Shown here in pieces: positions 1-51,398 of a stretch of 64,000 bases of DNA. The stretch lies in NCBI RefSeq assembly GCF_000426305.1, contig NZ_AUFC01000009.1, forward strand, positions 1 to 64,000, written 5' to 3'. The notes under the pieces were generated by a model that ran no database searches, was not told the DNA's origin, and worked only from the letters and a program-made list of their open reading frames with translations. The first letter of the stretch is position 1. The number at the start of each line of letters is the position of its first letter. This stretch comes from Anaerovorax odorimutans DSM 5092 (GTDB lineage: Bacteria; Bacillota; Clostridia; Peptostreptococcales; Anaerovoracaceae). Both the position numbers and the translations under genes were made by a program.

Positions 1-2145
1 TACCGTTGGCGCATCATTTACCTCATTTACAGTTATCGTTGCCGTTGCTTCTTCGGAATACACTGTTCCATCATTTACCTTCCATGTAAAGCTGTCTGTT
101 CCAACATAATTTGTATCAGGAGTATATGTAAATGTACCATCTGTGTTTACCGTTACGCTTCCATGACTTGGATCTTTTACCTTTACATAAGTTAAGTGAT
201 CTCCTGTATCCGCATCTGCTGCATATGTGGTTAAATCTCCATTAATTGCTGTATCTTCATTTGTTGTAAAGGTATGATTACTTACTGTCGGTGCATCATT
301 AACTGCCGCAATTGCTAATGTCATTGTTGCTGCTGAAGAATATGAATTGCCGTCACTGGCTTTCCATGTAAAGTTTGTATCTCCGTTAAAATCTGCTGTA
401 GGAACAAAGGTTATATTTGCTAAATCAGCAGCATTGATATCTTGCCCTGCTGTTACATTTGAATCATTCACTTTTAATGTTCCGTTCGCCGGCAGGGTTA
501 CAATCTGTACCTTACTTAATGCATCACTTTCTTCATCCGCATATATTTCTGCCCCGTTAAAATCCGCTATGGCAAAACTCATTGTTGTATCTTCCGTGCC
601 ATCTTTTGAGCTGTTTGAAATCGTTGGCGAATTGTTAGCAGGAGCAGGAGCTGTCATGTTACTAACAGAAAATGAGTCTAACTGCAAAGTACTAGCATTA
701 GTCGTGTCAGCATAAACAGTAAAATAATCCAGATCCTTTGATGATAAAATATCAAATCCGGTAAAATCAGCCTGTTTAGCCCCTCCAGAGCTATGAACAT
801 ATGAGTCAGTTACGGTGAATGTACCTCCAGCATAATGTCCAACAATTCTCACATTGTTTAAATCCGCGTACGTCGCGTAAAATGCAAGTAAGCTGATAGC
901 ATCAAGTCTAAAAGTACTAAGTGAGGAGCCATTGGCTGCAACTTTAATTGCAACAGTTCCTGATGATGAAGAAGATGCATAAGCGCCATAGTATTTATCT
1001 AAATCTACAGATGTACCATTAACATTTGCACTTACTAAGAAATAGTCATTACTAAGAGTAGCACCATTATCAGTAAGGTCGTTATAACTGCAAATACTAG
1101 TAGGCCATAATATTTTTATAAATTTTCCCATTGCTTCTTTTGTAAACGGTGGCTTACTTGCTACATCCCCAACAACCGCCTCCAGCGTCCAGTCTCCACC
1201 TTTATCTTCTGCACCTGTAGGATTAATCGATGCAGCAACATCAGCTCCAGTCACTTGAGCTAATTTGGTTATAAAGTTTTTTCCTTCTTCACCTTTTGCA
1301 ACATTACAGCCAAAAAGCTGAATATCCCCATCCTTACTTAGATAACCTGAAAGCTTTTGCCATTTATCTTTATCTTTTTCTAGTTCTTCAATATCAATGG
1401 CTCCATTTTTAAATTTTAATTCTCCGCTAGTACCATGAGAAATAATATTCAAACAATCTACTTTCTTCATAGCTTCTAATTTAGAAAGAATAGCATCTAA
1501 GGGATCATTCTTTCCATCTAATAACAGAATTTCTCCCTCTTTTACCCCGTCCCTGAGCAATTCCCAATCTTCTAAAGAAGTATCAATAACTGTGAGGATT
1601 TTTCTTTCTTGTTTTTCAAAATATGTGATATCAGAGTCTCCATCAATTAAGACCCCTTGAGCTTCTATTGGTTCATATGAATTCTTAGGTGCTTTACTTG
1701 TAATCATATGAAGCGAGGTAGTCTTGATGTCCTGTACTGACTGTGTATTTTTATTACTTAGAAAGCTATCTTCATCCAAAACAACACTGCTTTCTCCACT
1801 TAAGATAGCATCATTTTCATCCTGTTTCAGAGTATTTGTAATCAAGGCGGAAGACTGATAGTCCGAAACTGCTTGTGCCATAATGGGTGTTGTCTGTAAT
1901 GTGACCAAAAGGGCCGCGATTGTCACACAAGATGCTATTTTTTTGTATATTTCTGTTCCTTGAAAAGCATCAGCAATTTTTTCAATCATTCTACGTTCAT
2001 CTATCTGTTGATTCTTATCAATTTTTTCAAGTAAATCAATGCAAGCTCTTCTTTGTTTATGAGTCTCTAAATAACTTTCATCAATTTCATATTTGTTAAA
2101 AAGTGATTGTTGATATGTATTAAAGCCCTTATTTCTTCGTTTCAT
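1..2145 (-). CDS. DUF4347 domain surface protein with cadherin-like repeats (3' end beyond window)
   Basis: The minus-strand frame is open from the ATG at 2145 to the window edge, giving 715 residues with no stop. An AGGAGG site at 2155-2160 supports the start. Residues 1-64 are charged, followed by a hydrophobic segment near 65-90 that could be a signal or anchor. Residues about 175-320 fit DUF4347: a beta strand ending in SHG (H237), then FGC (C280), then a GADVAAS and GGDW signature. A spacer follows, then two cadherin-like/tandem-95 repeats (about 500-615 and 620-715), each ending in VNDAPT. More repeats probably lie beyond the edge. The start overlaps the upstream TIGR03032-type gene by 17 bases, suggesting translational coupling. 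DUF4347 usually sits at the N-terminus of giant secreted repeat proteins; its function is unproven. Surface or secreted location is inferred. Confidence 0.85.
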   Translation of the reverse strand, partial: MKRRNKGFNTYQQSLFNKYEIDESYLETHKQRRACIDLLEKIDKNQQIDERRMIEKIADAFQGTEIYKKIASCVTIAALLVTLQTTPIMAQAVSDYQSSALITNTLKQDENDAILSGESSVVLDEDSFLSNKNTQSVQDIKTTSLHMITSKAPKNSYEPIEAQGVLIDGDSDITYFEKQERKILTVIDTSLEDWELLRDGVKEGEILLLDGKNDPLDAILSKLEAMKKVDCLNIISHGTSGELKFKNGAIDIEELEKDKDKWQKLSGYLSKDGDIQLFGCNVAKGEEGKNFITKLAQVTGADVAASINPTGAEDKGGDWTLEAVVGDVASKPPFTKEAMGKFIKILWPTSICSYNDLTDNGATLSNDYFLVSANVNGTSVDLDKYYGAYASSSSSGTVAIKVAANGSSLSTFRLDAISLLAFYATYADLNNVRIVGHYAGGTFTVTDSYVHSSGGAKQADFTGFDILSSKDLDYFTVYADTTNASTLQLDSFSVSNMTAPAPANNSPTISNSSKDGTEDTTMSFAIADFNGAEIYADEESDALSKVQIVTLPANGTLKVNDSNVTAGQDINAADLANITFVPTADFNGDTNFTWKASDGNSYSSAATMTLAIAAVNDAPTVSNHTFTTNEDTAINGDLTTYAADADTGDHLTYVKVKDPSHGSVTVNTDGTFTYTPDTNYVGTDSFTWKVNDGTVYSEEATATITVNEVNDAPTV

Positions 2146-3226
2146 TTTGAGATTCCTCCTTTATTGAAATACGCTTGGTATCCACTATATTCTCCACCCA
2201 TTCACATCCAAATGGAGTAATTAATGCTCTATGCTTTAATGATTGCTGATAATTGAGGATATTTACTCGTTTATATCCTTCCAAAATATGAACGTCATAC
2301 AGTTCTTCCACATCGCTTTCATACTCTATTTTACCCACAACTTCTCCAGAATTTAGATCAACAATAACTACGCCAGCCTTTATTTCTTTATCTACAAGTT
2401 CTAAATCCGAAAAAGTATGTGTATTTCGAAGTTTGCTTATCCCAATGAACGCATACTGGTCTTTAAAGCTGAGACCTCTGATAAATCCATCCAATTTTGC
2501 AACCACTTGATAAGACTTCGTTTTTAAGTCTACCTTGATTAGCTGCTCCGTAGCGGATAAAAGCATATAAATATCCCCTTTATATACTCTGGGCGAATGA
2601 GGCATAGGCAGACCTGATAAAACAATCTGATTTGTTTTTACATCCATTAGAATTCCACTTGTCAGCTTGTTCTCACGCCATCCTTCCTTTGAAGCAGTCT
2701 CTCCAAACGCCGTAACATATCGAATCTCACTGGAATCATCCACAGCCATTCCATTAAGATGACACAAATCCTGAGGGATATATTTTTCAATAAACGGAGG
2801 CTTCCAAATTGGATTGAAGGAATATTCGCCATCCAAACGACAAAGACAACTAAAAGAAGTATTCACTCCTATCAATCCTTTTTTAGTAAATGCAATATCA
2901 TGAATATCTACATAATCTGTTCGAAAAACTGAAGTTGGATAGTAGAAAGCATCATACACATCAGGCTTTTCTGGATAAGTTTTTGCTAAATTAGGATCTG
3001 TTCGAAAAACTGTCACCCCTAATGCTCCTGCTAACGCCATCAGCGGTTTTCGTAAAGCAATCCCCATGGGTCTAGAAAATTCTCTTACTAACTGATACAT
3101 CCTTTCTCCGTCACTGGACAATATAATTACTTTTCCGGCCTGATAAGTAGACAATATCAAAGAAATGTTCAATTTATCAAGCAATTCCAGCGTTTGTCCG
3201 CTGTAAGAACATTGAAATGGTCTCAT
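2129..3226 (-). CDS. TIGR03032/DUF4915 family protein
   Basis: A 365-residue protein starting at an ATG with AGAAAGGAA upstream. The opening segment has the family signature, with STYQAGK followed by a short DGE turn and FSRPMGIA. A run of beta-strand repeats follows, of the propeller type, with DIHDIAF, CHLNGMAVDD and GFIRGLSF blades. There is no signal peptide or membrane segment, so it is probably cytoplasmic. Its biochemical role is unknown. It lies 134 bases downstream of the TSUP gene and its last 17 bases overlap the start of the DUF4347 surface protein, so the two are likely co-translated. I infer an accessory role for that surface protein. Family membership is judged from remembered motifs only. 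Confidence 0.75.
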   Translation of the reverse strand: MRPFQCSYSGQTLELLDKLNISLILSTYQAGKVIILSSDGERMYQLVREFSRPMGIALRKPLMALAGALGVTVFRTDPNLAKTYPEKPDVYDAFYYPTSVFRTDYVDIHDIAFTKKGLIGVNTSFSCLCRLDGEYSFNPIWKPPFIEKYIPQDLCHLNGMAVDDSSEIRYVTAFGETASKEGWRENKLTSGILMDVKTNQIVLSGLPMPHSPRVYKGDIYMLLSATEQLIKVDLKTKSYQVVAKLDGFIRGLSFKDQYAFIGISKLRNTHTFSDLELVDKEIKAGVVIVDLNSGEVVGKIEYESDVEELYDVHILEGYKRVNILNYQQSLKHRALITPFGCEWVENIVDTKRISIKEESQNETKK

Positions 3227-3360
3227 TCTATTCCTTTCTGATACACACTTTTGTAAATGCTATATGTGATTCTTTATTTTATAATATTTATGAAAATTTT
3301 TCCATTTATTTCTTGAAAATCTCAGGATATGAAAAACATGCTTTTACTAAATATTTTATC

Positions 3361-4107
3361 CTATACAATAAGTAAAATGATACTTCTGAGATTTAGGATA
3401 ATTATCAAAATACCAACTATTATAAGCAGATTTTTTGTTGGCATTTTCTTGCATACATAAGCTGCCAAAGGGGCTGCTAAAACCCCTCCAATAGCCAGTC
3501 CAGCAATATATTTCCAATATTCTCCAATTCCCAAAAAAAGAGTAAACGTTAATGCTTGTACTATGGTTACAAAAAATTCAGCGGTATTTACTGAACCTAT
3601 CGTATATCGAGGCGGGTGACCAGAGGCAACCATTGTTGAAGTGACAATAGGTCCCCAGCCTCCACCTCCTACTGCATCAAAAAATCCTCCAATCAATCCC
3701 ACCAAAACTAATTGTTTTCCTTTAATTAACTTTCGAGAAATACCATGTATCCCTCTAATCAAAACAACTATACCCATAACGAGCAAGTAAATATTTACTA
3801 TAGGAGAAATCATATCACCAGGAAATGATGTAAGAATATATGCACCAAGAGCTCCGCCAATGACACCGGGAAAAACTAGCTTTTTAAAGATTGTCCAATC
3901 AATGTTTTTCATTTTCCAGTGAGAAATCCCTGAAACCAAGGTAGTAAACACTTCTGCTGTATGTACGCTGGCACTGGCAATTTTAGGTGAAATTCCTATA
4001 GTAGTTAAAAATGTTGTTGAACTAACACCATACGCCATTCCAAGTGATCCATCAATCATTTGTGCCATAAACCCAATAATAACAATACTGATGAAATTAA
4101 TGTCCAT
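3361..4107 (-). CDS. TSUP (TauE/SafE) family membrane permease
   Basis: A 248-residue integral membrane protein with about seven or eight hydrophobic helices. It shows the TauE/SafE duplication: GSLGMAYG in the first half and DAVGGGGWGPI in the second. The ATG at 4107 is preceded by GGAGAAAAG. It begins 16 bases after the end of cysNC and shares its direction, so it very likely belongs to the sulfate-activation operon. TSUP proteins move small sulfur or organic anions. Next to ATP sulfurylase genes the natural inference is sulfate uptake, but direction and substrate cannot be read from sequence. No ATPase or binding protein accompanies it. Confidence 0.82.
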   Translation of the reverse strand: MDINFISIVIIGFMAQMIDGSLGMAYGVSSTTFLTTIGISPKIASASVHTAEVFTTLVSGISHWKMKNIDWTIFKKLVFPGVIGGALGAYILTSFPGDMISPIVNIYLLVMGIVVLIRGIHGISRKLIKGKQLVLVGLIGGFFDAVGGGGWGPIVTSTMVASGHPPRYTIGSVNTAEFFVTIVQALTFTLFLGIGEYWKYIAGLAIGGVLAAPLAAYVCKKMPTKNLLIIVGILIIILNLRSIILLIV

Positions 4108-4123
4108 TATCTTTTCTCCGCTT

Positions 4124-6010
4124 TTATATTTTAAAATGCTTTTCTAAATAAAATAGTACCTGCTCTACACACTCTCTTATATCATTCTTTTCTGTATCTA
4201 AAATCAAATCGGGACAGTCTGGTTCTTCATATGGAGAAGACACACCCGTAAAGTTTTTTATTTTCCCCTCCATTGCTTTGGAATACAAGCCTTTGGTATC
4301 TCTTGCAAGACACGTTTCGAAGGAAGCTTTTACGTAGACTTCAACAAATCCAAGCTCTCCTATGATATTCTTTGCTTTTTCGCGCATACTCCTAAGTGGT
4401 GATATAAAAGAAACCAGAGTAATCATTCCACTCTCTTTAAAAAGCTTCGCTGTCTCTGATACTCTTCTGATATTCTCATCTCGATCAATAAGGGAAAATC
4501 CTAAGTCTGAATTCAATCCATCTCTAATATTGTCACCATCTAGTCTGAATGACAGTTTACCTTGATTCATCAACTGTCTTTCCAGTTCAATTGCTATAGT
4601 TGATTTTCCTGCACCAGATAGCCCTGTAAACCATAATACGATTCCCTGTTGCCCTAATTGTCCACAGCGTTCTTCATAAGAAACTTTTCCGCTTTGAGTA
4701 AATAAAGGCATTTCCAATGTTTCTGAATAGTTTTTAATATTTTCCAGAATTATTCCACCGCCTGAAATATTATAATTTTCTACTATGACAAATCGTCCTG
4801 CACTTGGAAAAAGATCAGCTGTGTCAAAAGCAATTTCTTTATCAAGTGTCAATATACATTCTGCGATTTCATGCCTTTCCACTTTATTTTCATTTTTTGC
4901 TAAAATTTCTATATTGGAAGCATCCATTATACTTAAAATTTTCTCAACTTTTACATCTATTTTAGTTGTCCCTATTTTAAATAAATATTTTTTCCCTTCC
5001 ATTAAAGACTGTTTCCCCAACCAAAAAAGCCTTGTCTTTATATGCCTTCCTACAAAAGGGGGCTGCTCCCCAAGCTTTATGGCAATTTCTCCCCTTTGAA
5101 GAAAAAGTTGTTCTTCTAATGTAAATCCGGTAGCATACCCTACTGTGACCTGATTAATTTTTTCTTTACCAAAACATTCAATAGATTTTAATCTGCTTTT
5201 CTTTTCAGATGGATAAAAAATAAGTTGGTCGCCAATGTTCAGCGTGCCCGAGTCTACTGTTCCTGCTATAATTCTCCTTTGATCTCCATCTTTAGTAAAT
5301 TTATAAATATCTTGAATGGGCATTCTGAAAGGTTTTTCCAGCGTTTTTTCTTCTCCTTTTAAAGTCTCCAAAGTTTCTAAAAGAGTTTTTCCGTCATACC
5401 ATTCCATATGTTCAGAATAATTGACAATATTATCACCATAAAAACCACTTATAGGGATGAACGACTGTGGTTTTAAAGATGTCCCTTGAAGAAATTCAAT
5501 GTATTCCTCTGTTATTTCATCAAACCTTTCTTTCTTGTATCCTACTAAATCCATTTTGTTGATTAAAATGCAAACCTGCTCGATTCCCAATAAAGATAAA
5601 TATACACCATGCCTTTTAGAGTTATCCCGTACACCTTCAACTGCATCAATTACCAACACCGCCGCATCTGCACGAGAAGCACCAGAAACCATATTTTTTA
5701 TAAACTCTGTATGTCCCGGTGCATCAATTAATATGTAATTTTTATTTTTTGTTTTAAAAAAACATCTCGCTGAATCAATGGTTATACCCTGTGACTGTTC
5801 CTCTTTTAGTGCATCTAATAAAAATGCATATTCAAAAGGTCTGGCTGTTTTACGGCATTTTTCTCTTATCTGCTCTAATTTTCCTTCCGGTAAAGAACCA
5901 TAATCCATTAATAAACGCCCAATAACCGTACTTTTACCATGATCTACATGTCCTGCGAAAACTACACGCATGTCTTGTTGAAGAGAAGAAGTATCCATTA
6001 TCTTATCCAT
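4124..6010 (-). CDS. cysN: CysNC: sulfate adenylyltransferase GTPase subunit fused to APS kinase
   Basis: A 628-residue two-domain enzyme. The N-terminal part is an EF-Tu-like GTPase with GHVDHGKST (G1), DAPGH (G3) and NKMD (G4), plus downstream beta-barrel domains. The C-terminal part, after about residue 435, is adenylylsulfate kinase with P-loop GLSGAGKST and SFISP. With CysD it would convert sulfate and ATP to APS, driven by GTP, then phosphorylate APS to PAPS. I choose the ATG at 6010, one base after the cysD stop, with AAGGGATGG upstream. A longer frame opens at 6109 inside cysD, but the family N-terminus fits 6010 better. No APS/PAPS reductase or sulfite reductase is in the window. Confidence 0.93.
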
Positions 6011-6011
6011 G

Positions 6012-6893
6012 CTACATATACCCATCCCTTCTGAGTTCTTCCAGCCCTCCGCCGTCTTCCTTATCTTGCTCTCGTCCAGCTCGTTCAGCAATATTAGCAA
6101 ATTTGCCATCCTTTAGTTCATAAACAATTTCCCGGACAGTTTTAGCTGTTGATTTTACTGGCTTTGTACATGGAGCACATCCTAAAGAACGATACCTGCT
6201 GCCTTCTCCTTGGTCAAAATATAATGATACTACGGGAATTTTTTCTCGTTCAATATATTCCCAAATATCTAATTCTGTCCAATCAAGCAAAGGATGAATA
6301 CGTACATGTGTGCCCGGAGCAAATTCTGTTTTATATTGGTTCCATAATTCCGGAGGTTGTTCAGCAATATTCCAATCATTGTTTTTATCCCTGGGCGAAA
6401 AATATCTTTCCTTTGAACGGCTTCCTTCTTCATCTGACCGAACGCCTACAATGACACCAGTAAAAGGTTCCGTGTTTTTATCTTCTTCGTATAATCCACT
6501 CTGATGATTCAACCTATATCGAATACCTTCTCCATTTAAAACTTTTTTTAGTGCTTCTGTCTTTAAATTTTTACAGCATTGTATTCTGTTTGTAACTCCA
6601 TCTGGATAAGTATTTTTATTCATCAATGCCTCTGTATTTTCTCCATAGATCATATCCAGATTCCATTTTTTTGCAATTCTATCTCTATATTCAATCATCT
6701 CAGTTATTTTAAAATGTGTATCAATATGCACAAGAGGCATAGGAACATGTCCAAAAAAAGCTTTTCTTGCAAGCCATAATAAGACGGTGCTATCTTTACC
6801 AATCGACCAAAGCATACAGAGGTTTGGAAATTGCCTGTAAGCCTCTCTTAAAATATAGATGCTTTTATTTTCCAATTTATCAAGATGGTTCAA
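6012..6893 (-). CDS. cysD: CysD: sulfate adenylyltransferase subunit 2
   Basis: A 293-residue PP-loop ATP pyrophosphatase. The nucleotide motif SIGKDST lies near residue 30, followed by VHIDTHFKI, the [11 protein letters not shown] block and LGCAPCT. The C-terminus, with AERAGREQD and ending in DGYM, matches the usual CysD ending in form. It catalyses adenylation of sulfate together with CysN. The start is TTG at 6893, chosen because GGAGG at 6901-6905 sits seven bases upstream and no ATG fits. The stop is one base before the cysNC start. The gene heads a minus-strand operon (cysD, cysNC, TSUP, possibly TIGR03032 and DUF4347) and is transcribed divergently from the AgrA-like regulator. Confidence 0.93.
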
Positions 6894-33288: not shown

Positions 33289-36200
33289 CTAGGACTGCAA
33301 TTTTCTTCTTCTTAAAACTTCTGTCAGAATTAGTCCGATTACTGAAAGAACAGCTAAAAAGATTATAAAGTTTATTGATATTAAGCTGACCCCTGTCTTA
33401 GGAGTATCATCCAAATCTGCTGGGCCCATAGGAACATCTTCATCAATAATCCATCCTGCCGGTACTTCTTCAGGATCAATTTGAGAAATTTCTCCACTTT
33501 CTATCTTATAATTTTTGAATTGAACGGTAACATCACGTTTTCCTGCCTGATCTGTCAATTGGAAAGAATACTCCTTACTGCTTTTCTTATATCCTGCTGG
33601 CGCAAATTTTTCTCTTAGAGAATATTCTACACCCAGCTCCAATTGCTCAAAAATTACAACTCCATTCTTATCTGTTAACTTAGATGTTTGAATGAGATTC
33701 TTACTTTCATCAATCAGTTCAAAAGTAGCACCAGATAAAGCCTGTGAAGGATTTTCTCCATCCACTTTTATGATTTTTAAACTTCCCAGAATTGCCTCAG
33801 GTGTGGTAATGGAACCTGGTGTCGTTACTCCTCCAGGCGTAGTAGTTTTGCCACCATCACTGCCACCACTGCCACCACCATTACTATTTTTTTTAGTGTT
33901 TGTAAAGACAGCAGTATGAGTTTTATTTGTGTCAATTATTCCCTTTTCACCTGTATGGGTGGTGGTATATCCATCACTGGAATAATCCTTTTCCGTTACG
34001 ACATACTTCAAATCCTTGGGTAGTCCGTTGATGGTAATGGCATCACTGTCTTTAAGGTAAAACCTATCTCCGCTTTGGATTACTCCAGACAGCAAACCGT
34101 CTTTATTAATATATTGATAGGAGTTAATGTTCATCGAGCCATCAGCATTAAAAAATTCTATTATAAATTCGAAAGCTCTATTTTCATTGGCATTACCTGC
34201 AACGATTTTTTGAATCGTCAGGTTTCCTACTGTGTTGTCCGCAAAATCTATTACAGAGAGCTTGTTGGAATTCGCTCCTGTCTTTCCATCAATGGAAGAG
34301 CTAACTGTAGTACTTACAGTCGTTACTGTAATAGTGTGAATCACGCCTTCCAGCGAATATCCTACCGGCGCTTTTGTCTCCTTAAGCAGATACGTTCCGT
34401 CAGGAATAACCTTCAGTATGAGTTTGCCATCAATTCCGGTTGTTCCCTTACGAATGACCGTCTTACCATCCTGGGCGTAAAGCGTGAATTCCGCTCCGGC
34501 AAGAGGAAGACTTGAACCATCAGTCTTGGTGATTTCTAGCCAGCCGTTTCTCTGTAGAGTAGCAAAACCATCTTGTTCAGAAATGGCATAATCTGTTCCA
34601 GTTGCTTCAACATCTCCACTGCTACCAATCAACTTCACATGATTTAATACCGTACCCACTATGCCGGTGACATCCGTAATGTAGGTCAGTCGATAAGCCT
34701 TACTACTATCTGGTATTTTGAAAGTCAGAATCCGTGTTTCGTTGTCATACGAAAGATTATCACCGAGATTCAAAGCCACTGGAGTTCCTATCTGGTACGT
34801 TCCATCCGCTTTAAGCAACATTTCGTTCGCTGTGATATTGCCGTTGACCAGCAATGTACCGGCATTATCGGTTCGCAATTCTAGTCCCATAGGCAGCTTA
34901 TCCTCGATTCTTCTTTCACCATTCTTCGTTAAATCGTAGGATTTGTATTCCACTGTCCATTTTACTTGTCCAGCCTCCAGTAATGCATTGGTCTTATCCA
35001 GTACTTTATTCACTATGGAAACAGCTCGTTTAACGGATACTCCTGGCTGCCAGTTTTCAGCTTTTAAACCCAGACTATTTTCTTCTGTCGTAATCTTATT
35101 TGTATCAAAGTAATCCTCTATTTTATCTGCTTTAGGTTTCGCCTTTACCAAAATAACATAAGGCTTATCCAGTGTAGAAAAGGTAAAGGTGGCTGTCTGA
35201 GGATTTATACCTTTCTCAAATACTGGTGTTAGTCCAGTCACATTGGCTAGTGCTGTACCAGAAGCCTGCAAGGTTCCAGTTGTATTTGGAATTCCCTCGA
35301 AAATTAGAAAGTCTTTTCCGGGGAGAATCTCCACAAACTCCCAGTCAGCTGGCAGCGTGTCGGTGGCAATTGCAGACCCTAACTTATCACCAACCGCATT
35401 TATGTCAGCTCCTGTCCAGTTCAGACCATTAGCGTTAACGCTGAGGCGAAAAATCACTGATTTGTCTATGTAGTGAAAGCCGTCGGATGCTGTTGTTGTA
35501 ATGTTGTTGACCCCATCTGCGGGATCATTATGAGCCTCGCGTTTAAGCATTTCTTTAGCAAGCACCCTACTATTATAAGAAGGATTTGCCGTCACCTCTG
35601 TAAGCTTTGTCGTACCGTTGAACAGCATGGCTGTATTGTATATCTGCTTGCTGGTGTTACTAGCAAAGATATCTGGATTCAGGACGAGGGTATCAAAGGT
35701 AAATTCATTGACCTGCGTACCCGACAGACCCGTGAATACAAGTAGATCTGCAACCGGTTTACCATCTTGCATTATAGTATGCACAGTAGGCGCCGAAACA
35801 AGCGTCGGTCCTATGTTGGTAAAGTTGCCGTTGTATTTCTGGTCATACCGAATATTTGTAATGTCTGAAGTGTTAATCCCTGCAGGCCAACCAGTAGCTG
35901 TTGCCTTATCAAACCCACTAGTGCTGTTTCCATAAACCAGAAGATCATATACCTTAAGATTGTCAAGGCTGCTCTGCCCTTTTGCGTCCACCTTCAACGT
36001 CCATTTCACAGTACGATCTTTGACATTTACCGTTCCGGTTTTAGTAATTGCATTATATCCGATATTCACCCCAATATCACCTGTTGTCAAACCATCAGAA
36101 CCGGGAGAACCGTCCCAACTAATGCTAGCCTTGTTTGTATATTTTGTGATTGTCGTCGTGCCGTTTGTATCATCCGCTACACTGGTAATAAGGAGTAAAC

Positions 36201-37461
36201 GACCTTTCCTGTTAATATCGCCGATTTCATATTTCCCATCCACAGGTGTCGAAGGAAATGTCTTTATTTCTGCCCATGTATCAGGAGCAGTTTCTTCTTC
36301 CCATTTCGCTGATACCCAGGTCAGACCAGGATTCAGTACATCGGTAATCACGACGTTTTTAAGAGATGCTCCTTCGTGGTTAGCGGTAATGGTCCATGCG
36401 ATGGTACGCCCTGTAGGAATATAAGTACTTCCTCCTGTATCACTTGGCAAACCAGTTTTTTCAATCCATTTCGGAGGAGTGAATTGAACAGTTCCCAAAG
36501 CATCTTTTTTCAGAACATCAGAGCTATCCTTCAGAACGGCTTTGTTCATAATCGATTGCTCTCCACTACCATAATACTTGTCCTCGGGTATTTTGGTTAC
36601 AAAACTAATATTTTTTGGGCTTGTAGAGCCTTTCGGGAAAATATAACTTAGTATAGAACCCGTATAATCAGGCGTCGGTGAGACTATCCCACTGACTGCA
36701 AAAGTATCCGCAACATAACTGCCCACCTTGCTTAAATCATCCACAAACTTGTAACCTTCCAGATCAATAGGATTGCCGGCCTTTACTGCTCCCACTGTTA
36801 CATTCCATTCAACCTGCCTTTCGGCTAGATTTACAGTCCCCGATTTTACCACTGTATATTCAACTGGAGCTTCCGCTACATGTACAGTGAAGTTTTTCTC
36901 CAAAATACTAACGGTTACATCCTTCTCTGTGCCGTCATCACCGGTTTTATCATATTTTAAATTTGCGGTGAATTGACATTTAACCGTATTAAGAGTAGGG
37001 TCGCTACCATCAAACAATAGCTCATCTCCGTCAAATTGGACTTCGGCAAACACTTTACCCGCTTCCGAACCAGTGCCGCTTACAAGTGTAAGATGCCCAA
37101 CCGTAATAGTGCCAAATTTTAATTCCTTTGATCCTGTACTGCTCGCCATTAAAGCAAATTTATCGCTCACCTCAAAACGAGCTGTATCACCTGCATTAAC
37201 AGGATTTGCAGGAGTTGGTTCATCACCTATTACAGGCACCCGAAAGGAGATTTCCACCGAAAGTTCTTTTTCGCTGTCTATTTTATCAGAAGTTGTCAAT
37301 ATCTTATCATCTTGCTTCAGCGTTACCTCCTGCTCAGTGAGATTATCTGTCACATCTGTTCCCTCTGCAGCATACGCTACGGGGGTAAATAACGAAAATA
37401 GAAGCATCAACACAAGGATAAATGCAATTGGCGACGCCGGACTTCTTTTTCTGTTTCTCAT
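33289..37461 (-). CDS. Sortase-anchored adhesin with Cna-type and SpaA-type domains
   Basis: A 1390-residue surface protein. The signal peptide (1-31) ends at AYAA. A long series of immunoglobulin-like domains of the collagen-binding/isopeptide type (about 60-990) is followed by two SpaA-type prealbumin domains (GWLEITKTDGSSLPLAGAEF near 1000, and GSLKIIKVDGENPSQALSGA near 1235), with a fimbrial-type domain and a glycine-rich linker (NSNGGGSGGSDGG) between them. The C-terminus has the sorting signal TPKTG at 1353-1357, a hydrophobic helix and RRRK. The ATG has AAAGGAGGA upstream. The sortase B gene follows 81 bases later. Spontaneous Lys-Asn bonds are expected from family knowledge. Confidence 0.9.
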   Translation of the reverse strand: MRNRKRSPASPIAFILVLMLLFSLFTPVAYAAEGTDVTDNLTEQEVTLKQDDKILTTSDKIDSEKELSVEISFRVPVIGDEPTPANPVNAGDTARFEVSDKFALMASSTGSKELKFGTITVGHLTLVSGTGSEAGKVFAEVQFDGDELLFDGSDPTLNTVKCQFTANLKYDKTGDDGTEKDVTVSILEKNFTVHVAEAPVEYTVVKSGTVNLAERQVEWNVTVGAVKAGNPIDLEGYKFVDDLSKVGSYVADTFAVSGIVSPTPDYTGSILSYIFPKGSTSPKNISFVTKIPEDKYYGSGEQSIMNKAVLKDSSDVLKKDALGTVQFTPPKWIEKTGLPSDTGGSTYIPTGRTIAWTITANHEGASLKNVVITDVLNPGLTWVSAKWEEETAPDTWAEIKTFPSTPVDGKYEIGDINRKGRLLLITSVADDTNGTTTITKYTNKASISWDGSPGSDGLTTGDIGVNIGYNAITKTGTVNVKDRTVKWTLKVDAKGQSSLDNLKVYDLLVYGNSTSGFDKATATGWPAGINTSDITNIRYDQKYNGNFTNIGPTLVSAPTVHTIMQDGKPVADLLVFTGLSGTQVNEFTFDTLVLNPDIFASNTSKQIYNTAMLFNGTTKLTEVTANPSYNSRVLAKEMLKREAHNDPADGVNNITTTASDGFHYIDKSVIFRLSVNANGLNWTGADINAVGDKLGSAIATDTLPADWEFVEILPGKDFLIFEGIPNTTGTLQASGTALANVTGLTPVFEKGINPQTATFTFSTLDKPYVILVKAKPKADKIEDYFDTNKITTEENSLGLKAENWQPGVSVKRAVSIVNKVLDKTNALLEAGQVKWTVEYKSYDLTKNGERRIEDKLPMGLELRTDNAGTLLVNGNITANEMLLKADGTYQIGTPVALNLGDNLSYDNETRILTFKIPDSSKAYRLTYITDVTGIVGTVLNHVKLIGSSGDVEATGTDYAISEQDGFATLQRNGWLEITKTDGSSLPLAGAEFTLYAQDGKTVIRKGTTGIDGKLILKVIPDGTYLLKETKAPVGYSLEGVIHTITVTTVSTTVSSSIDGKTGANSNKLSVIDFADNTVGNLTIQKIVAGNANENRAFEFIIEFFNADGSMNINSYQYINKDGLLSGVIQSGDRFYLKDSDAITINGLPKDLKYVVTEKDYSSDGYTTTHTGEKGIIDTNKTHTAVFTNTKKNSNGGGSGGSDGGKTTTPGGVTTPGSITTPEAILGSLKIIKVDGENPSQALSGATFELIDESKNLIQTSKLTDKNGVVIFEQLELGVEYSLREKFAPAGYKKSSKEYSFQLTDQAGKRDVTVQFKNYKIESGEISQIDPEEVPAGWIIDEDVPMGPADLDDTPKTGVSLISINFIIFLAVLSVIGLILTEVLRRRKLQS

Positions 37462-45797: not shown

Positions 45798-48700
45798 TTA
45801 AATCAAACTTGTATTTTTAAGTAGTCGTAACACTACCGTAGCACATTCAGCACGGGTAATAGTATCTGTAGGACGAAGCTGATTATCAGATCCCACGATC
45901 AATCCATTAGATACATTGAAACTTACTGCATCTTCTGCCCAACTGCTCACCTGACTGATATCTTCTAAACCTGTCACGTTTACTCTTGATGCAGTGCCTA
46001 CATAGTCTGCGACTTCGGCCGCACGCTGAATCATAACCATAGCCTCCTGACGTGTGATTTTTGCATTGGCATCAAAACTACCATCTTCACGTCCAGTAAT
46101 CAATCCGTATTCTGCGGCCTTCCCTACTGCCCCGTAGTACCATGCACTGTTAGAAACATCGCTAAAATCAGCAGTACCATCTTCACTAAGACCTAATGCA
46201 CGTGTCAGTATAACTGCAAATTCTGCTCTTGTGATGCTGGCAGAGCCATCAAAAGTATTGTCCTCACGCCCAGTAATAATCATGCGAGATGCCATTTCTG
46301 AAACAGTATCTTCATACCAGGTCCCCTCGGCATCAGCAAATTCTACATTATTACCAACCAATGCATATACAGAATTGGTTAAAGAGTGAATACGTGCAAA
46401 GTAACTGCCATCTGAACCTCGTACTATTTTTGTAGGTACATGATGTTCTGTTCCATCGTCCGAAACCACCACAGCAGTCGTAATTTGGCTTGGTTCTACA
46501 CTAGATGGTATTGGAATTTCACGTGTCACATAGCTGCTAAAACTGGAAACTTCCATACTCTTACCACCATACGTTGCATTAATAGTAAATTCTATCGGCT
46601 GCAAAATCAACGTATACCCTTTATTAGCAATTACATTTTTTACAAACTGCGCCGAATCATCCATCAATTCTGTAATGGTAATATTCATCTCTATTTCATC
46701 CAATGTATCATCCCTTGCCCCCATTGCACTCTTAATAGCATCCATATTGATGGAATCGGTGGGAAGATTATAATAAATACCATCAGACTTCATTTGCAAA
46801 ATAACATCTTTTTGGGCCAATCCATTCAATGTTCCTGCCGTAAGTAAAAATTCACCGGTTTGTGCTGTTCCGCCGTCAATTCCTAACGTTGCTCCATTGG
46901 TTGCAGCACTTAGGATTTTATTGCTATCAATCGTAACAACTGTCCTATTTTGACCTGCATTTACACTATAAAAGTCATTGGTACTTTCTCCTGCAGAATC
47001 TGAGCTTGAACTGCTACTACTGCTGTGGTGACTGCTTCCACTGCTACTACTGCTCCCTGCTTTCCAAGATGCTTTCAAAGTAGTGTCTCTTGTCACCGCA
47101 TAGCTGCTATCTGCCGAGTAAGTGTTTGTCCCATCCGACCATCCGCTCAAGGTATATCCGCTGCGTGTAGCAGATGGCAATGTAATTGTTTTTCCATCAA
47201 GTGCCGTTATTTCACTTACTGTACTGCCACCATTAGAATCAAAGCTGATGGTGTACTGATTCTTTACTTCAATGGGATAGGTTATCGTACCATAAGCAAT
47301 CAAATTTCCGCCTTCATTCTTGTCTACATAGGTAAAGGTTAAGTAATATAGACCCTCCGACAGTTCATTGTCAACATCTACCGTTTGACCACTATCGTCT
47401 AGCATGGAAATTGCTACTAGACTAGAATTACAAAAATAATCTAAATCATCCGAGGTCACTGTAGTATTACTATAACTTACCTTTGCCCCAGCAGCCTGTT
47501 CTGATACTACATCTGAGGATAACGTAACCTCCGTTACATCACTTGGTAGTTTCATCAAAATAGTTTCGTTTTCATTTCCAACCGTGTCACTGCCAGAATA
47601 GACCGTACCATCCGTAGTCGTTGCCGTTACTGTGTCTCCAGATGACCTCATCCAAGCAACCAGTTTGCCATTTTCATCCGTATATGTAGTAAAGGACATA
47701 TCGGTTCCACCGCCAACGTCAAACTCCATCCGTGTATTTTTCGGCATCCCGGAGAGTGTTGTTCGATAATATATATCGCTAGTATCGTCATCATATATCG
47801 GAGTAGTACTATTGGCTGCCGCATTGAGCAGTACAGTGTTGACAGAATATAATTTGACATAATCCGGCGAAGAGACCTCTCCCGATACATCCATAGCGGC
47901 GCTATCATATAGCTTTGTACCGGTTCCCTGTCCGTTATCCTGATTTTTTACTGTCACATTTCCATGTACTTCAGCAGTTGTCTGCTCCTTCATATAGAAA
48001 AGATTTGTGCTCACCGAACCGCTGACCGATAAGTCCGAATCGTCCTCCATCCAAACACCATAATTACCGCTTGTAATCTCAATATCACCAAGGATAGTTG
48101 CCTTTGCATTATTGTATAGTTTCAAATACGAATCGGAAGAAAGGGTGCCGGATACGGTCAAAACGGAATCACCAGAAACTTTGGCATAGTCTGAACAATC
48201 CAGATCTCCAAGGATGTGAAACTCTGAACCATTATATATGTCCAAAATATTGATATTCAAATCATTACCAATCGTTATGGTGGTACCGCCGCTCCAACAC
48301 TCTATCGAATCAAAACCAGCGATCGTATTGACACTGACCGATACATTCAGATCAAGGTAATACGACACATCGTCCTGATTGCTGTCATCACTTTCAATAC
48401 TCTCTGCATTCAAATAACTATTATAAGTGCATCTATAAAATTCAGCACCTGCATAGGAATCGGAACTATCAGAAGGATACAAGTAGATACTGCCGTTTCC
48501 CAAATCCAATTGGTCAATAGTCAAGCGATCTCCGTAATTGGAGCAAAAAACGTACATATCCATATTGTCATAGGTGCCGGAGATTGGGGTTTCAGAAGAA
48601 TCGGTAGCATTCGTCCAATCAATATCTGTATAGGCGCTCCCATTGTCATACTGTCCAATGATATAGTCTCCGTCATAAACCCATATTGCACTTTTGGCTG

Positions 48701-51398
48701 TTGCTATTGTGATGGTTACTTGGGCATCTCCGTTAACAACAAAACTCCACGGACTTTCTGATATACTCATTCCATTGACCGCCATCTCAGAAATCGCATC
48801 TCCCTCGGGTGGTTTCATGGTAACGGTCATACCCGCAACAACAGAATAGGTCCCATCGACGTTTGCAGTAAGGGCTTCTCCCAAGTAGTAAGGAACTGCA
48901 TCTCCGCTGACCGTAAGCGTAAAAGTTTCTGCCGCCATACGATGCGCCTCCACAGCGGCTTGTGTATTTTTGTTATCTTCCTGCAAGATCCAGCCGTTTA
49001 CTGTTGTAAATGCAAGGTTTGTCCAGAAAGTCTCATCCATTTCTGATGCCTCTTTTGTTTCAGCAGTAATACCGCTTGTTGTGATTGCACTGCTGGTAAG
49101 GCTCAAAAAGCTCGCTGCATAGCAGCTCTCATAGGAAGTTTTACCACGGTTATTTCCCACCAGGCTGTTTGCAGCTGACGCATCAATCAAATCCTGCATG
49201 GCAACACAATTTTCAATGGATACGTTTTGAGTAGATCCTGCGATTCCACCCGCATAGCTTGTATAATAGGTTGAGGTTGTAGTTGCGTTGACTTCTCCAT
49301 ACGCGACACAGTTTTTTATGGATTCGTCATATCCATAATAGTACCCAACAATTCCTCCGGCTTTTGGCTCTCCTGTTCCGGAAGCTGTAACTATGCCATT
49401 GTACTCACAGTGTGTTATGTTAGCCCCTTGTTGAATATATCCGGCAATTCCTCCGGCAATACCTTTCGAAACGACGTCACAATCAACTCTGCAATTTTTA
49501 ATATCAGAGGAACTTTGACCCGCTATGCCGCCACCATAAGAAGTAGACGTCTGTGTACCCTGTGTACCGCCGGAAACCTCACAATTGACAATCGGTTCAC
49601 AGTAGGAACTTTCTCCAATAATCCCACCCGCATATCTTCCATTTGTACTGCTGTCTTTTGCGTTGCATAACCTGATCATTGAACTATTGCTAGCACCTCC
49701 AACGATATTTCCTGCATACTGGCCTGTCACAGTACTGTTTGCTACCGTACAGCCCATAATCAAGGTTTCATTGGTGATATATGCTGCGATTCCACCCGCA
49801 TAGGTATAAGTATCGGATGATGTAATATCGATAGACGCGCCGGAAATGGTCAGATTTTTAATGGTTGCACTATCCAGATAACCAAATAGACCAGCGTGGC
49901 TAGTATCTGCTATTTGCAATCCGGAAATGGTCTTGCCATTGCCGTCAAAGCTCCCTTCAAAGGGAAGCGTATAGGATGTTCCAATGGGAGAAAAAGTCGA
50001 TGTCATTGTAATATCATCTGTCATCACAAAATAGATGTCGGAAAAGCTACGACCAGTACTTGATAAATCAGAAATTCTTACCAAGTCTTCCTCTCCGGCT
50101 ATTTGATAGGGATTATTCTCTGTCCCGGTGCCTGCCATCATGGTTTCATACGTTGGAGTCAATGAAATATCCGCTGTTAGTATGAATTGATAAACTCTAT
50201 CCTCACTTTTGGTATTTTCATCTCCATCAACCCATTCATAAAAAATTTCTCCATCGCTAAGTGGCGCTGTTACCGTGATGGAGTCTCCTACATCTCCAGT
50301 TAACATGGTAGTGGCTTCGTTCGTGCCAATATAAGCTCCGTCTGTTACTGTTACCGTACACTGTTTCGGTGTTCTAAAAGGTTGCCAAACTCCATAATCC
50401 GTACCGGAGTCTCCCGTAGTGTATGTACGATAGTAATATTCGGTGTCGTCGTTCAATCCAGTAACAGTTGCTGTGCCATTTGTCGCTGCAACTGTCAAAA
50501 TATTACCGGATTCCCCTTCCTTATATTCAAATCCACTGATGGTTGCATCGTCTTCAGACAACGTAGCACTGGTACTGGTTGCCGATACTTTGCTTGCATA
50601 AGTGATATTTCCATTTAGAGACAAGCTATCACTATGATAAGCCGCATCATAGTACATGGTGGCTAAAGAATACCCCTGAAAATTAGTGCCCGTCGCTGAT
50701 GTTATTCCAATATGATATTTATCATAGCTGCTTAAATCAACGGTGTATGTCGTTACCGGAGAAGTGGGTCTTGTGTTCGATTTACTGACATAAACCGCTA
50801 ACGATTGCGTGTCTCCATCATAGTCGAGCCAGAAATACAGGTTGCCCATTACAGGTACTGTGTAGCCGGTAGCAAGTGAACTGTCTGTGTTTTGTACGCC
50901 GTCTTGCCCTAAAGCAATCTTCACGGGTCCACCATTTGTAAAAGCCTGCACCGCCATGCTGCTACCAGTCAAGCCAAGGTATCCAAGTCCGGTTCCACTG
51001 CTTGCAGTGTTACATTCGCTTACATCCTGCGCCAGAACCAAAGCAAAGCCATCTTGTGCATAGTTGCTGTTGTTAGCAGGCGGTTGACCACAGTAAACGG
51101 TAGCTGCTAAAGAAAACCCTGAAGTTCCTGCCAGCAGTTTATTTTGGGTAAAGGCTCCACCTACTTTGTTTCTACTTTCCGGAACCAGTTGAATCCTTTC
51201 ATTGTCTTCATCATAGGTCGCATTACCAGAGAGCTGAAACGCAGTAAGCGCATCCGCTTCACTCACTGAGGCGTAAGCCATCGTAATGTGTTCTGTGCTT
51301 GCCCCAAAGACCGGAAATGCAGTCAGCGGAATCATACCAATGACCATGCACAAGCTTAGTAGCCCACTCAGTAATCTTTTTTTGAATTTCCTATTCAT
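45798..51398 (-). CDS. Giant SLH-anchored surface protein with lectin-like, GLUG and InlB_B domains
   Basis: A 1866-residue secreted protein starting at an ATG behind AAGGAGGA. Signal peptide (1-32, ending FPVFGAS). Residues about 45-265 resemble an L-type lectin domain (DGFALVLAQDV, then YFWLDYDGDTQSLAVYVS). Next come a fibronectin-like segment and repeated GLUG-type units (AGGIAGY, GGIVGY, GGIAGS, about 420-790). A beta-solenoid-like stretch follows, then an InlB_B repeat (ISFDSNGGSTVSEI), a serine-rich linker (about 1500), and three SLH domains at the C-terminus (about 1690-1866, WYEDTVSEM; WYYGAVGKAAEYG; WAEDAVSFNVSNG). SLH domains bind pyruvylated wall polymers. It stands alone between terminators. 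The lectin-like domain suggests glycan binding. Confidence 0.9.
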   Translation of the reverse strand: MNRKFKKRLLSGLLSLCMVIGMIPLTAFPVFGASTEHITMAYASVSEADALTAFQLSGNATYDEDNERIQLVPESRNKVGGAFTQNKLLAGTSGFSLAATVYCGQPPANNSNYAQDGFALVLAQDVSECNTASSGTGLGYLGLTGSSMAVQAFTNGGPVKIALGQDGVQNTDSSLATGYTVPVMGNLYFWLDYDGDTQSLAVYVSKSNTRPTSPVTTYTVDLSSYDKYHIGITSATGTNFQGYSLATMYYDAAYHSDSLSLNGNITYASKVSATSTSATLSEDDATISGFEYKEGESGNILTVAATNGTATVTGLNDDTEYYYRTYTTGDSGTDYGVWQPFRTPKQCTVTVTDGAYIGTNEATTMLTGDVGDSITVTAPLSDGEIFYEWVDGDENTKSEDRVYQFILTADISLTPTYETMMAGTGTENNPYQIAGEEDLVRISDLSSTGRSFSDIYFVMTDDITMTSTFSPIGTSYTLPFEGSFDGNGKTISGLQIADTSHAGLFGYLDSATIKNLTISGASIDITSSDTYTYAGGIAAYITNETLIMGCTVANSTVTGQYAGNIVGGASNSSMIRLCNAKDSSTNGRYAGGIIGESSYCEPIVNCEVSGGTQGTQTSTSYGGGIAGQSSSDIKNCRVDCDVVSKGIAGGIAGYIQQGANITHCEYNGIVTASGTGEPKAGGIVGYYYGYDESIKNCVAYGEVNATTTSTYYTSYAGGIAGSTQNVSIENCVAMQDLIDASAANSLVGNNRGKTSYESCYAASFLSLTSSAITTSGITAETKEASEMDETFWTNLAFTTVNGWILQEDNKNTQAAVEAHRMAAETFTLTVSGDAVPYYLGEALTANVDGTYSVVAGMTVTMKPPEGDAISEMAVNGMSISESPWSFVVNGDAQVTITIATAKSAIWVYDGDYIIGQYDNGSAYTDIDWTNATDSSETPISGTYDNMDMYVFCSNYGDRLTIDQLDLGNGSIYLYPSDSSDSYAGAEFYRCTYNSYLNAESIESDDSNQDDVSYYLDLNVSVSVNTIAGFDSIECWSGGTTITIGNDLNINILDIYNGSEFHILGDLDCSDYAKVSGDSVLTVSGTLSSDSYLKLYNNAKATILGDIEITSGNYGVWMEDDSDLSVSGSVSTNLFYMKEQTTAEVHGNVTVKNQDNGQGTGTKLYDSAAMDVSGEVSSPDYVKLYSVNTVLLNAAANSTTPIYDDDTSDIYYRTTLSGMPKNTRMEFDVGGGTDMSFTTYTDENGKLVAWMRSSGDTVTATTTDGTVYSGSDTVGNENETILMKLPSDVTEVTLSSDVVSEQAAGAKVSYSNTTVTSDDLDYFCNSSLVAISMLDDSGQTVDVDNELSEGLYYLTFTYVDKNEGGNLIAYGTITYPIEVKNQYTISFDSNGGSTVSEITALDGKTITLPSATRSGYTLSGWSDGTNTYSADSSYAVTRDTTLKASWKAGSSSSSGSSHHSSSSSSSSDSAGESTNDFYSVNAGQNRTVVTIDSNKILSAATNGATLGIDGGTAQTGEFLLTAGTLNGLAQKDVILQMKSDGIYYNLPTDSINMDAIKSAMGARDDTLDEIEMNITITELMDDSAQFVKNVIANKGYTLILQPIEFTINATYGGKSMEVSSFSSYVTREIPIPSSVEPSQITTAVVVSDDGTEHHVPTKIVRGSDGSYFARIHSLTNSVYALVGNNVEFADAEGTWYEDTVSEMASRMIITGREDNTFDGSASITRAEFAVILTRALGLSEDGTADFSDVSNSAWYYGAVGKAAEYGLITGREDGSFDANAKITRQEAMVMIQRAAEVADYVGTASRVNVTGLEDISQVSSWAEDAVSFNVSNGLIVGSDNQLRPTDTITRAECATVVLRLLKNTSLI

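Follow-up and report, generated by a model that had tools for sequence, protein, structure and literature searches.

For what purpose is sulfate activated in a bacterium that apparently cannot reduce it by the known route? This question is raised by a row of five genes at the left end of a stretch of 64,000 nucleotides from Anaerovorax odorimutans DSM 5092 (contig NZ_AUFC01000009.1, positions 1 to 64,000; the whole stretch is called the window below). The genes, which are all encoded by the minus strand, follow the order cysD, cysNC, TSUP permease gene, TIGR03032/DUF4915 gene and DUF4347 surface protein gene. According to family matches, the row holds the genes of both ATP sulfurylase (CysD/CysN) and adenosine 5′-phosphosulfate (APS) kinase, the enzymes of 3′-phosphoadenosine 5′-phosphosulfate (PAPS) synthesis. 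Here we present the evidence that the PAPS probably serves sulfation and that TIGR03032 genes often stand beside genes for exported proteins with a long leader ahead of the signal peptide. The explanation that we tentatively favor couples the PAPS supply to the leader-marked surface protein of the row, the precursor of which would be handled by a cytosolic TIGR03032 propeller.

6012..6893, minus strand: cysD, ATP sulfurylase small subunit with PAPS_reduct fold (PF01507, PRK05253)
4124..6109, minus strand: cysNC, fusion of the ATP sulfurylase GTPase subunit with APS kinase (APS_kinase and GTP_EFTU)
3361..4107, minus strand: TSUP/TauE permease (TauE), for which sulfate uptake is suggested by the position
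2129..3226, minus strand: TIGR03032/DUF4915 protein, predicted six-bladed beta-propeller (families and structure model)
1..2145, minus strand: DUF4347 surface protein, 5′ part; the rest is on contig C9 (L006:2-2113)
1870..2145, minus strand: 92-residue N-terminus of the surface protein, a leader of about 70 residues (with KYEIDESYLETHKQRRA) plus a signal-peptide-like hydrophobic stretch ending in MAQA (cleavage site by eye)
1108..1593, minus strand: DUF4347 domain, in which SHG and FGC are conserved (His/Cys pair of caspase-like type)
1..636, minus strand: cadherin-like/Big_9 tandem-95 repeats (approximate limits; copy number uncertain across the contig gap)
1..193, no strand: exact 193-bp match to the start of contig C9, linking both halves of the gene

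Sulfate activation and the layout of the row

Regarding a reductive fate of the sulfate, the sole match to PF01507 in the whole genome was CysD itself, which leaves no CysH, and no match to the sulfite reductase model NIR_SIR (PF01077) was obtained; the controls matched in 14/14 and 11/14 genomes, respectively. Because these genome searches gave neither enzyme, the PAPS is probably not made for reduction, and its use in sulfation is considered quite likely. The first-pass annotation of this DNA had reported neither a PAPS reductase nor a sulfite reductase in the window, which holds genome-wide as searched, and the assimilatory reductase operon elsewhere that it had named as contrary evidence was looked for genome-wide and not found. 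The TSUP permease would import the sulfate.

The same annotation had described a row running in one direction with an overlap of 17 bases between its last two genes (2129-2145), and coordinates, strands and families all agree with it. The spacing is 16 bp between cysNC and the TSUP gene and 134 bp between the TSUP and TIGR03032 genes, and the five genes may well be co-transcribed. The open reading frame (ORF) of cysNC starts at 6109, within cysD, and its true start is likely 6025, 6010 or 5998. Upstream of cysD are 296 bp of AT-rich intergenic DNA, followed by a divergent response-regulator-like gene. All ORFs are intact and host-like in composition (GC 0.35-0.37 vs 0.35); by eye, P-loop motifs are recognizable and the ribosome-binding sequence before the DUF4347 gene looks good. 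The genome comprises 3.26 Mb in 54 contigs and is 98.5% complete; because the window begins at the end of a contig (C7), the DUF4347 gene is cut in it. The TIGR03032 protein scored 343.7 bits against its family model (curated cut-off 251.5) and 354.8 bits against DUF4915 (35 bits), and the DUF4347 domain (PF14252) scored 156.7 bits (24.6).

TIGR03032 and the leader-bearing proteins beside it

The start of contig C9 is an exact copy of the leftmost 193 bp of the window, and the same frame runs on for 703 residues (L006:2-2113) through more cadherin-like repeats, an fn3 domain and three C-terminal S-layer homology (SLH) domains. The surface protein therefore has at least about 1,350 residues and is SLH-anchored. 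Its leader, like the others in the proteins scanned, is covered by no Pfam or NCBIfam match. QRRA is invariant in the leaders of the DUF4347 proteins that accompany TIGR03032 in the window, in a Chromatiales locus (L102) and in a Rheinheimera locus (L097). Two other SLH proteins of this genome (L007:6574-9408 on contig C8, and 45798-51398 of the window) have ordinary short signal peptides by eye. The latter includes a lectin-like region, and a large surface protein with SpaA and DUF7601 domains (33289-37461 of the window) also has an apparently ordinary signal peptide.

The neighborhoods of TIGR03032 genes were examined in 92 other loci, namely 13 of the 16 plasmid records matched and 79 of the 80 genome loci retained as the best 80 of 581 relatives, which are not a random sample; for 40 of the 92 loci, less than 15 kb of sequence was covered. 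One locus more (L026), in which ORF calling took the antisense frame, was left out, and a leader-bearing neighbor was seen by eye there too. A repeat-type protein belonging to one single-linkage cluster, named from its Pfam-checked members, is encoded at most four genes away in 52/92 loci; other neighbors include DUF4347 giants, autotransporters and choice-of-anchor proteins. Proteins encoded next to TIGR03032 tend to bear a long basic segment ahead of the signal-peptide-like hydrophobic stretch. By a hydrophobicity rule, this n-region was 50-110 residues long in 33 of 64 proteins encoded next to TIGR03032 (including the window's own) vs 12 of 113 encoded three or more genes away (p 5e-9). This test left aside genes exactly two away and all proteins that had fewer than 300 residues, a cut N-terminus, no hydrophobic stretch or additional membrane segments. 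Under an earlier rule (n-region of at least 40 residues) the counts were 16/36 adjacent and 14/111 distant. By eye, several of the 64 adjacent proteins are not surface proteins, and the long n-regions of the distant set are mostly those of cytosolic enzymes or of other proteins encoded in the same arrays (L039, L087). The array in L087 comprises at least four secreted proteins with a similar long leader by eye, as if one TIGR03032 protein served several substrates.

Regarding the kinship of the leaders, a profile was built from 32 of them (four N-terminally trimmed). As they had been picked by eye for length, the profile tests kinship and not frequency. In the leave-one-out analysis the partner ranked first in its own locus for 29/29 non-DUF4347 leaders, all with E <0.01 (E-values assuming 1,000 sequences). 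Judged by sequence similarity, there is one homologous leader family, nearly all of whose loci are titled Bacteroidota, plus a second, DUF4347-type leader. The passenger and the anchor vary (type IX secretion tail, SLH), but the leader is associated with TIGR03032 throughout. A leader motif common to the phyla was considered and rejected: [RK][RK]Q[RK] occurs in 7/64 adjacent vs 0/113 distant proteins, but the DUF4347 leaders are not firmly linked to the others as homologues.

The TIGR03032 protein was modeled as a six-bladed propeller with a mean predicted local distance difference test score (pLDDT) of 92.4 (46 sequences). In fold comparison, LRP/YWTD propellers reach Z 23.8, Kelch domains appear in the top Foldseek rows, and arylsulfate sulfotransferase gives Z 21.0 with 270 residues aligned; many six-bladed propellers match as well as the latter or better. 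Nine polar residues are invariant over the 46 sequences (H109, D153, C155, H156, N158, H210, R250, R267 and E308), which suggests a working site for binding or catalysis. A convincing signal peptide was not seen in the TIGR03032 proteins; 11 of 93 were flagged for a signal-like stretch, mostly the conserved 'STYQAGK' propeller strand. Kinship with the arylsulfotransferases (PF05935) was rejected: the D-x-x-H-x-N motif is present in both families, but the residues stand in another register, hhalign gave probabilities of 0.9% and 0.4% with two sets, and no Pfam sulfotransferase model matched any of the 46 members. Marginal matches to quinoprotein glucose dehydrogenase (E 0.013) and PQQ_2 (7/46 members, best E 0.025) were taken as generic propeller matches.

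Modifying enzymes (GT41, GT9, GNAT, APS kinase, sulfotransferase) stand beside TIGR03032 or are fused to it in a minority of the loci. GT41-like proteins are encoded beside it in L027, L039, L051, L055 and L056 and fused in L020, a GT9 domain is fused in L012 (weak match), and GNAT domains are fused in L018, L022 and L024 and adjacent in L048; the members fused to GT41, GT9 or GNAT are five plasmid-borne ones. An APS kinase is encoded at most two genes from TIGR03032 in 4/92 loci (L016, L042, L046, L047), corresponding to 4/321 near vs 0/706 far genes (Fisher p 0.009); a weak CysNC match in L074 (2e-8, a lone 700-residue protein) was taken as a GTPase and not counted. Sulfotransferases, sought by phmmer from four proteins and by one motif, so that divergent ones may be missed, occurred within the examined stretch in 3/92 loci. 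In L015 (Diaphorobacter), the gene for an Asp/Arg hydroxylase-sulfotransferase overlaps TIGR03032 by 4 bp, and in L018 a Sulfotransfer_2 gene lies about 4 kb away. The Rheinheimera locus L097 holds Asp/Arg hydroxylase, PhyH-methyltransferase, Sulfotransfer_3, GNAT, DUF6916 and Collar genes, together with a second sulfotransferase-like ORF recognized by eye, without a Pfam match.

The DUF4347 domain itself was modeled less reliably, from three sequences (pLDDT 69.2), with Tce1 as the best match (Z 12.1), followed by SAVED-CHAT (8.5) and by caspase and legumain (about 7). SHG and FGC are invariant in 3/3 sequences (window, L102, L097). Tce1 (PA0256) has been described as a putative cysteine protease whose dyad consists of His and Cys (PMC13323088), and DUF4347 has been noted in the same protein (PMC8262886). 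The two DUF4347 motifs would fit such a Tce1-type pair, of the kind expected in the caspase-like cysteine proteases of clan CD, and the domain may act in proteolysis of the surface protein.

Other genes were observed farther along contig C9. The gene next to the DUF4347 gene resembles a purine-biosynthesis enzyme by eye. At a distance of 2.4 kb beyond the DUF4347 gene, the opposite strand encodes a SecA of 751 residues (L006:4542-6797), possibly an accessory export ATPase. In the segment L006:13305-20000 there are genes for two radical-SAM proteins, one of which has SPASM; a peptidase-ABC transporter, an HlyD-like protein and a lipoprotein of substrate-binding type were recognized there by eye, and the segment looks like a cluster for a ribosomally synthesized and post-translationally modified peptide (RiPP).

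Relatives of the two modules and the missing sulfotransferase

A search for APS kinase in 296 genomes of the family matched 39, of which 12 other genomes with a strong match (at least 203 bits) on a CysNC-type frame provided the cassettes for comparison; the count excludes 24 genomes in which the match was weak and the APS-kinase-like genes of L147 and L148, which stand alone. Neighborhoods were read by ORF calls and tblastn. A sulfotransferase is encoded at most two genes from cysNC in 10/12 of these loci (L136, L137, L138 with three copies, one of them interrupted, L139, L140, L141, L142, L144, L145 and L146). The ten span six genera, five of them (L136, L139, L141, L142, L144) belonging to one genus, and the two cassettes that lack a sulfotransferase (L135, L143) are located close to the ends of their contigs, in genera that also hold positive ones. 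CysD is in view in nine of the ten, and out of view in L144 because that stretch begins inside CysNC; a TSUP gene also follows CysNC in L138, L144, L145 and L146. The cassettes closest to that of the window are those of L145 and L146 (identities of 73-74% for CysD, 50-53% for CysNC and 51-52% for TSUP). Their gene order is sulfotransferase-CysD-CysNC-TSUP, with the sulfotransferase directly upstream of cysD (in L145 represented by its C-terminal part alone, cut by the contig start). The family cassettes are like the window in their homologous CysNC and CysD, and in four cases TSUP, but they have the sulfotransferase, with TIGR03032 not found in the family sample outside this genome, whereas the window has the reverse.

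Regarding the type of these sulfotransferases, those of L139, L141 and L145 match Sulfotransfer_3 in Pfam, the one of L146 matches the Sulfotransfer_3 protein of L141, and that of L144 matches the Sulfotransfer_2 protein of L018. Five others, termed the A3 family, are matched by no Pfam sulfotransferase model; they are encoded beside cysDNC at the following positions.

L136:3450-4631: A3 sulfotransferase-like gene
L137:5157-6323: A3 sulfotransferase-like gene
L138:6963-8027 and L138:11693-12817: two A3 sulfotransferase-like genes
L140:9881-11014: A3 sulfotransferase-like gene

The A3 proteins have the motifs LHIGTxKTGTT and YLRRQDxFxES, which we take to be PAPS-binding. Next to its complete cassette, L138 also has another cysD-like piece, which is truncated (L138:12845-13180). 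In L147 (4483-13119), a flagellin gene is followed by genes for APS-kinase-like, cytidylyltransferase-like and decarboxylase-like proteins (by eye), a set that suggests phosphonate-type modification of flagellin.

In the genome of strain DSM 5092, PF00685, PF13469 and PF05935 gave no match (each control matched in 2/14 genomes), and the profile specific for A3 gave a best E of 0.136 at 11.9 bits, which amounts to nothing found. PF03567 also had no match in the genome, but its control was silent everywhere, so this negative shows nothing. With ten sulfotransferases as queries, tblastn at E 1e-3 gave no match in the window, in L006 or in L007 (the sequence being partly N), and none was recognized by eye among the 16 ORFs of at least 120 residues in the first 20 kb of contig C9. 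The proposal of the first-pass annotation that the PAPS could feed a sulfotransferase is supported by the cassettes of the relatives and not by this genome, in which the PAPS sulfotransferase that it suggested looking for was not detected.

The TIGR03032-DUF4347 pair has a different distribution. A TIGR03032 match above the curated cut-off was found in 1/296 genomes of the family and 1/398 of the phylum, in both cases this genome, which alone represents its genus in the sample; weaker matches below the cut-off numbered one more in the family and two more in the phylum sample. None was found in a first scan for close relatives among genome contigs or in phage records. The five-gene order, which the first-pass annotation had proposed to compare across relatives, is accordingly not conserved in these samples. 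In a tree of 46 homologues, the TIGR03032 protein of the window groups with that of L102 (ultrafast bootstrap/approximate likelihood ratio test 99/76), and the two join that of L097 (100/96, long branch). In all three loci the DUF4347 gene is immediately downstream of TIGR03032, and within the tree phmmer with the window's DUF4347 domain matched a neighboring gene in these three alone. The pairs of the window and of the Chromatiales locus are 55-57% identical.

The grouping suggests that the pair was probably acquired, and transfer as a pair, leaving its direction aside, would be the simplest reading; because the composition of the genes is like that of the host, the acquisition was probably not recent. 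The Chromatiales and Rheinheimera loci, both gammaproteobacterial, agree with the window in the gene pair, its order and the type of leader (KQRRA or RQRRA). They differ in three phage-tail-Collar-type genes before the pair and in the absence of an SLH match from the parts scanned (L102 is cut by a contig end), and L097 also in having hydroxylase and sulfotransferase genes instead of cysDNC. The Collar-type genes are consecutive and directly precede TIGR03032-DUF4347 (L097:8018-9645, L102:5493-7271), with a GNAT-like gene before them; one of the three in L097 was scanned by Pfam, and those of L102 were assigned by similarity.

Competing explanations and comparison with known systems

In the explanation that we prefer, without calling it probable as a whole, the row would be a hybrid of two modules, CysD-CysNC-TSUP and TIGR03032 with the DUF4347/SLH protein. 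The former would take up sulfate and convert it to PAPS for sulfation. The surface protein would be synthesized with a cytosolic leader of about 70 residues ahead of its signal peptide, and TIGR03032 would recognize or hold this precursor for modification before export, which here would be sulfation from PAPS, on the precursor or on its glycan. After export, the caspase-like DUF4347 domain may process the protein and the SLH domains would fix it to the wall. That TIGR03032 acts on the precursor of its neighbor seems reasonably likely, by way of a putative recognition of the leader; that the sulfate ends on the DUF4347 protein is plausible, but not quite likely. The first-pass annotation had suggested sulfation of a surface structure with TIGR03032 as an accessory. 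The PAPS genes, the surface proteins beside TIGR03032 and the loci with APS kinase or sulfotransferase agree with it, whereas no transferase was found and sulfation of the DUF4347 protein stays conjectural.

Several results weigh against this explanation. No sulfotransferase was found in this genome, and the step that gives the explanation its name is therefore without a known enzyme, although a divergent or unassembled one may exist in a genome of 54 contigs. The enrichment of APS kinase near TIGR03032 is modest and was tested after it had been seen, and sulfotransferases are not enriched (1/321 near vs 3/706 far genes). Neither enzyme occurs in the examined stretch of 85/92 loci, and sulfation would therefore be one of several modifications and not a general rule. 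The DUF4347-type leaders, finally, are not clearly homologous to the others by sequence, with leave-one-out E-values of 0.36 (window), 0.01 (L102) and 110 (L097); the first two rank first in their own loci and the third sixth.

The PAPS might instead feed an ordinary sulfotransferase that was missed, acting on a glycan, lipid or small molecule, with TIGR03032-DUF4347 as a mere downstream neighbor. The ten sulfotransferase-linked cassettes in genomes without TIGR03032, as far as sampled, speak for this, as do the apparently separate acquisition of the pair and the escape of five A3 proteins from the Pfam models, by which more unmodeled types may exist. Given the negative searches for A3 and four Pfam families (one without a working control), the common direction and close packing of the five genes, and the sulfation genes in some unrelated TIGR03032 loci, we regard it as somewhat unlikely. 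Hidden enzymes of another kind, an unrecognized APS or PAPS reductase and a sulfite reductase completing ordinary assimilation, could have been missed in a genome of 54 contigs at 98.5% completeness; the reductase searches with their working controls, and the APS kinase with the adjacent sulfotransferases of the relatives, which point to PAPS use, make this very improbable. A broken pathway, in which the sulfotransferase was lost and the cassette is a relic or handles sulfite or sulfate alone, would account for the AT-rich DNA in the slot that the sulfotransferase occupies in L145 and L146, but is quite improbable in view of the intact ORFs, P-loops, host-like GC and good ribosome-binding sequence.

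A further alternative is that TIGR03032 is itself a PAPS- or APS-using transferase, a non-homologous replacement of a lost sulfotransferase. It accompanies PAPS genes in a genome in which the searches gave no known sulfotransferase, its invariant polar residues may resemble an active site, and it shares fold and motif with arylsulfate sulfotransferase. This is nevertheless distinctly unlikely: profile comparison and Pfam gave no kinship, LRP/YWTD propellers fit the fold better, arylsulfotransferases use aryl sulfates and are not known to use PAPS, a conventional sulfotransferase accompanies TIGR03032 in L015 and L097, and fusions to GT41, GT9 and GNAT suit an accessory role better. The preferred explanation, in which TIGR03032 handles the precursor, can also be widened. 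TIGR03032 would then be the core of an undescribed cross-phylum system that modifies large exported repeat proteins, in which the cytosolic propeller recognizes a leader of 50-90 residues ahead of the signal peptide and guides a set of interchangeable enzymes (GT41, GT9, GNAT, hydroxylase, sulfotransferase) to the precursor. Here it would couple PAPS synthesis to sulfation of an SLH protein, possibly transferring the sulfate itself. We consider this wider conjecture doubtful.

Both Pfam and NCBIfam list TIGR03032/DUF4915 under the name of a family of unknown function. In the literature searched, no paper naming TIGR03032 or DUF4915 was found, nor anything on sulfation genes and a surface protein in such an arrangement; DUF4347 is named in four papers there. 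The link to leader-bearing surface proteins and modifying enzymes gives the family a testable role. If sulfation is true, a bacterium apparently unable to reduce sulfate by the known route activates it for the decoration of its surface, with a transferase of unknown type.

Among known systems, the NodPQ/NodH proteins of rhizobia offer a comparison, in which extra CysDNC-type proteins supply PAPS for sulfating a secreted product; there a lipo-oligosaccharide is sulfated, by a known sulfotransferase. Closer is the RaxP/RaxQ-RaxST-RaxX system of Xanthomonas, for which a working model of dedicated PAPS synthesis, sulfation of a leader-bearing product and export has been presented (PMC4216712). The likeness lies in a dedicated ATP sulfurylase/APS kinase that makes PAPS for sulfating an exported leader-bearing polypeptide (PMC4216712, PMC6637879). 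However, RaxX is a peptide of small size, and in RaxST the sulfotransferase is known, whereas in the window the candidate target is an SLH-anchored protein of >1,300 residues, its partner is TIGR03032 and no sulfotransferase was found; by analogy, the locus would be a variant of the Rax logic in which a propeller partners a giant anchored protein. The leader recalls the extended signal peptides of autotransporters and the YSIRK signal peptides, which are described as likewise placing a long or marked n-region before the Sec signal of large surface proteins (PMC2805444, PMC11841062). It differs from these in its sequence and in being tied to a partner gene, TIGR03032.

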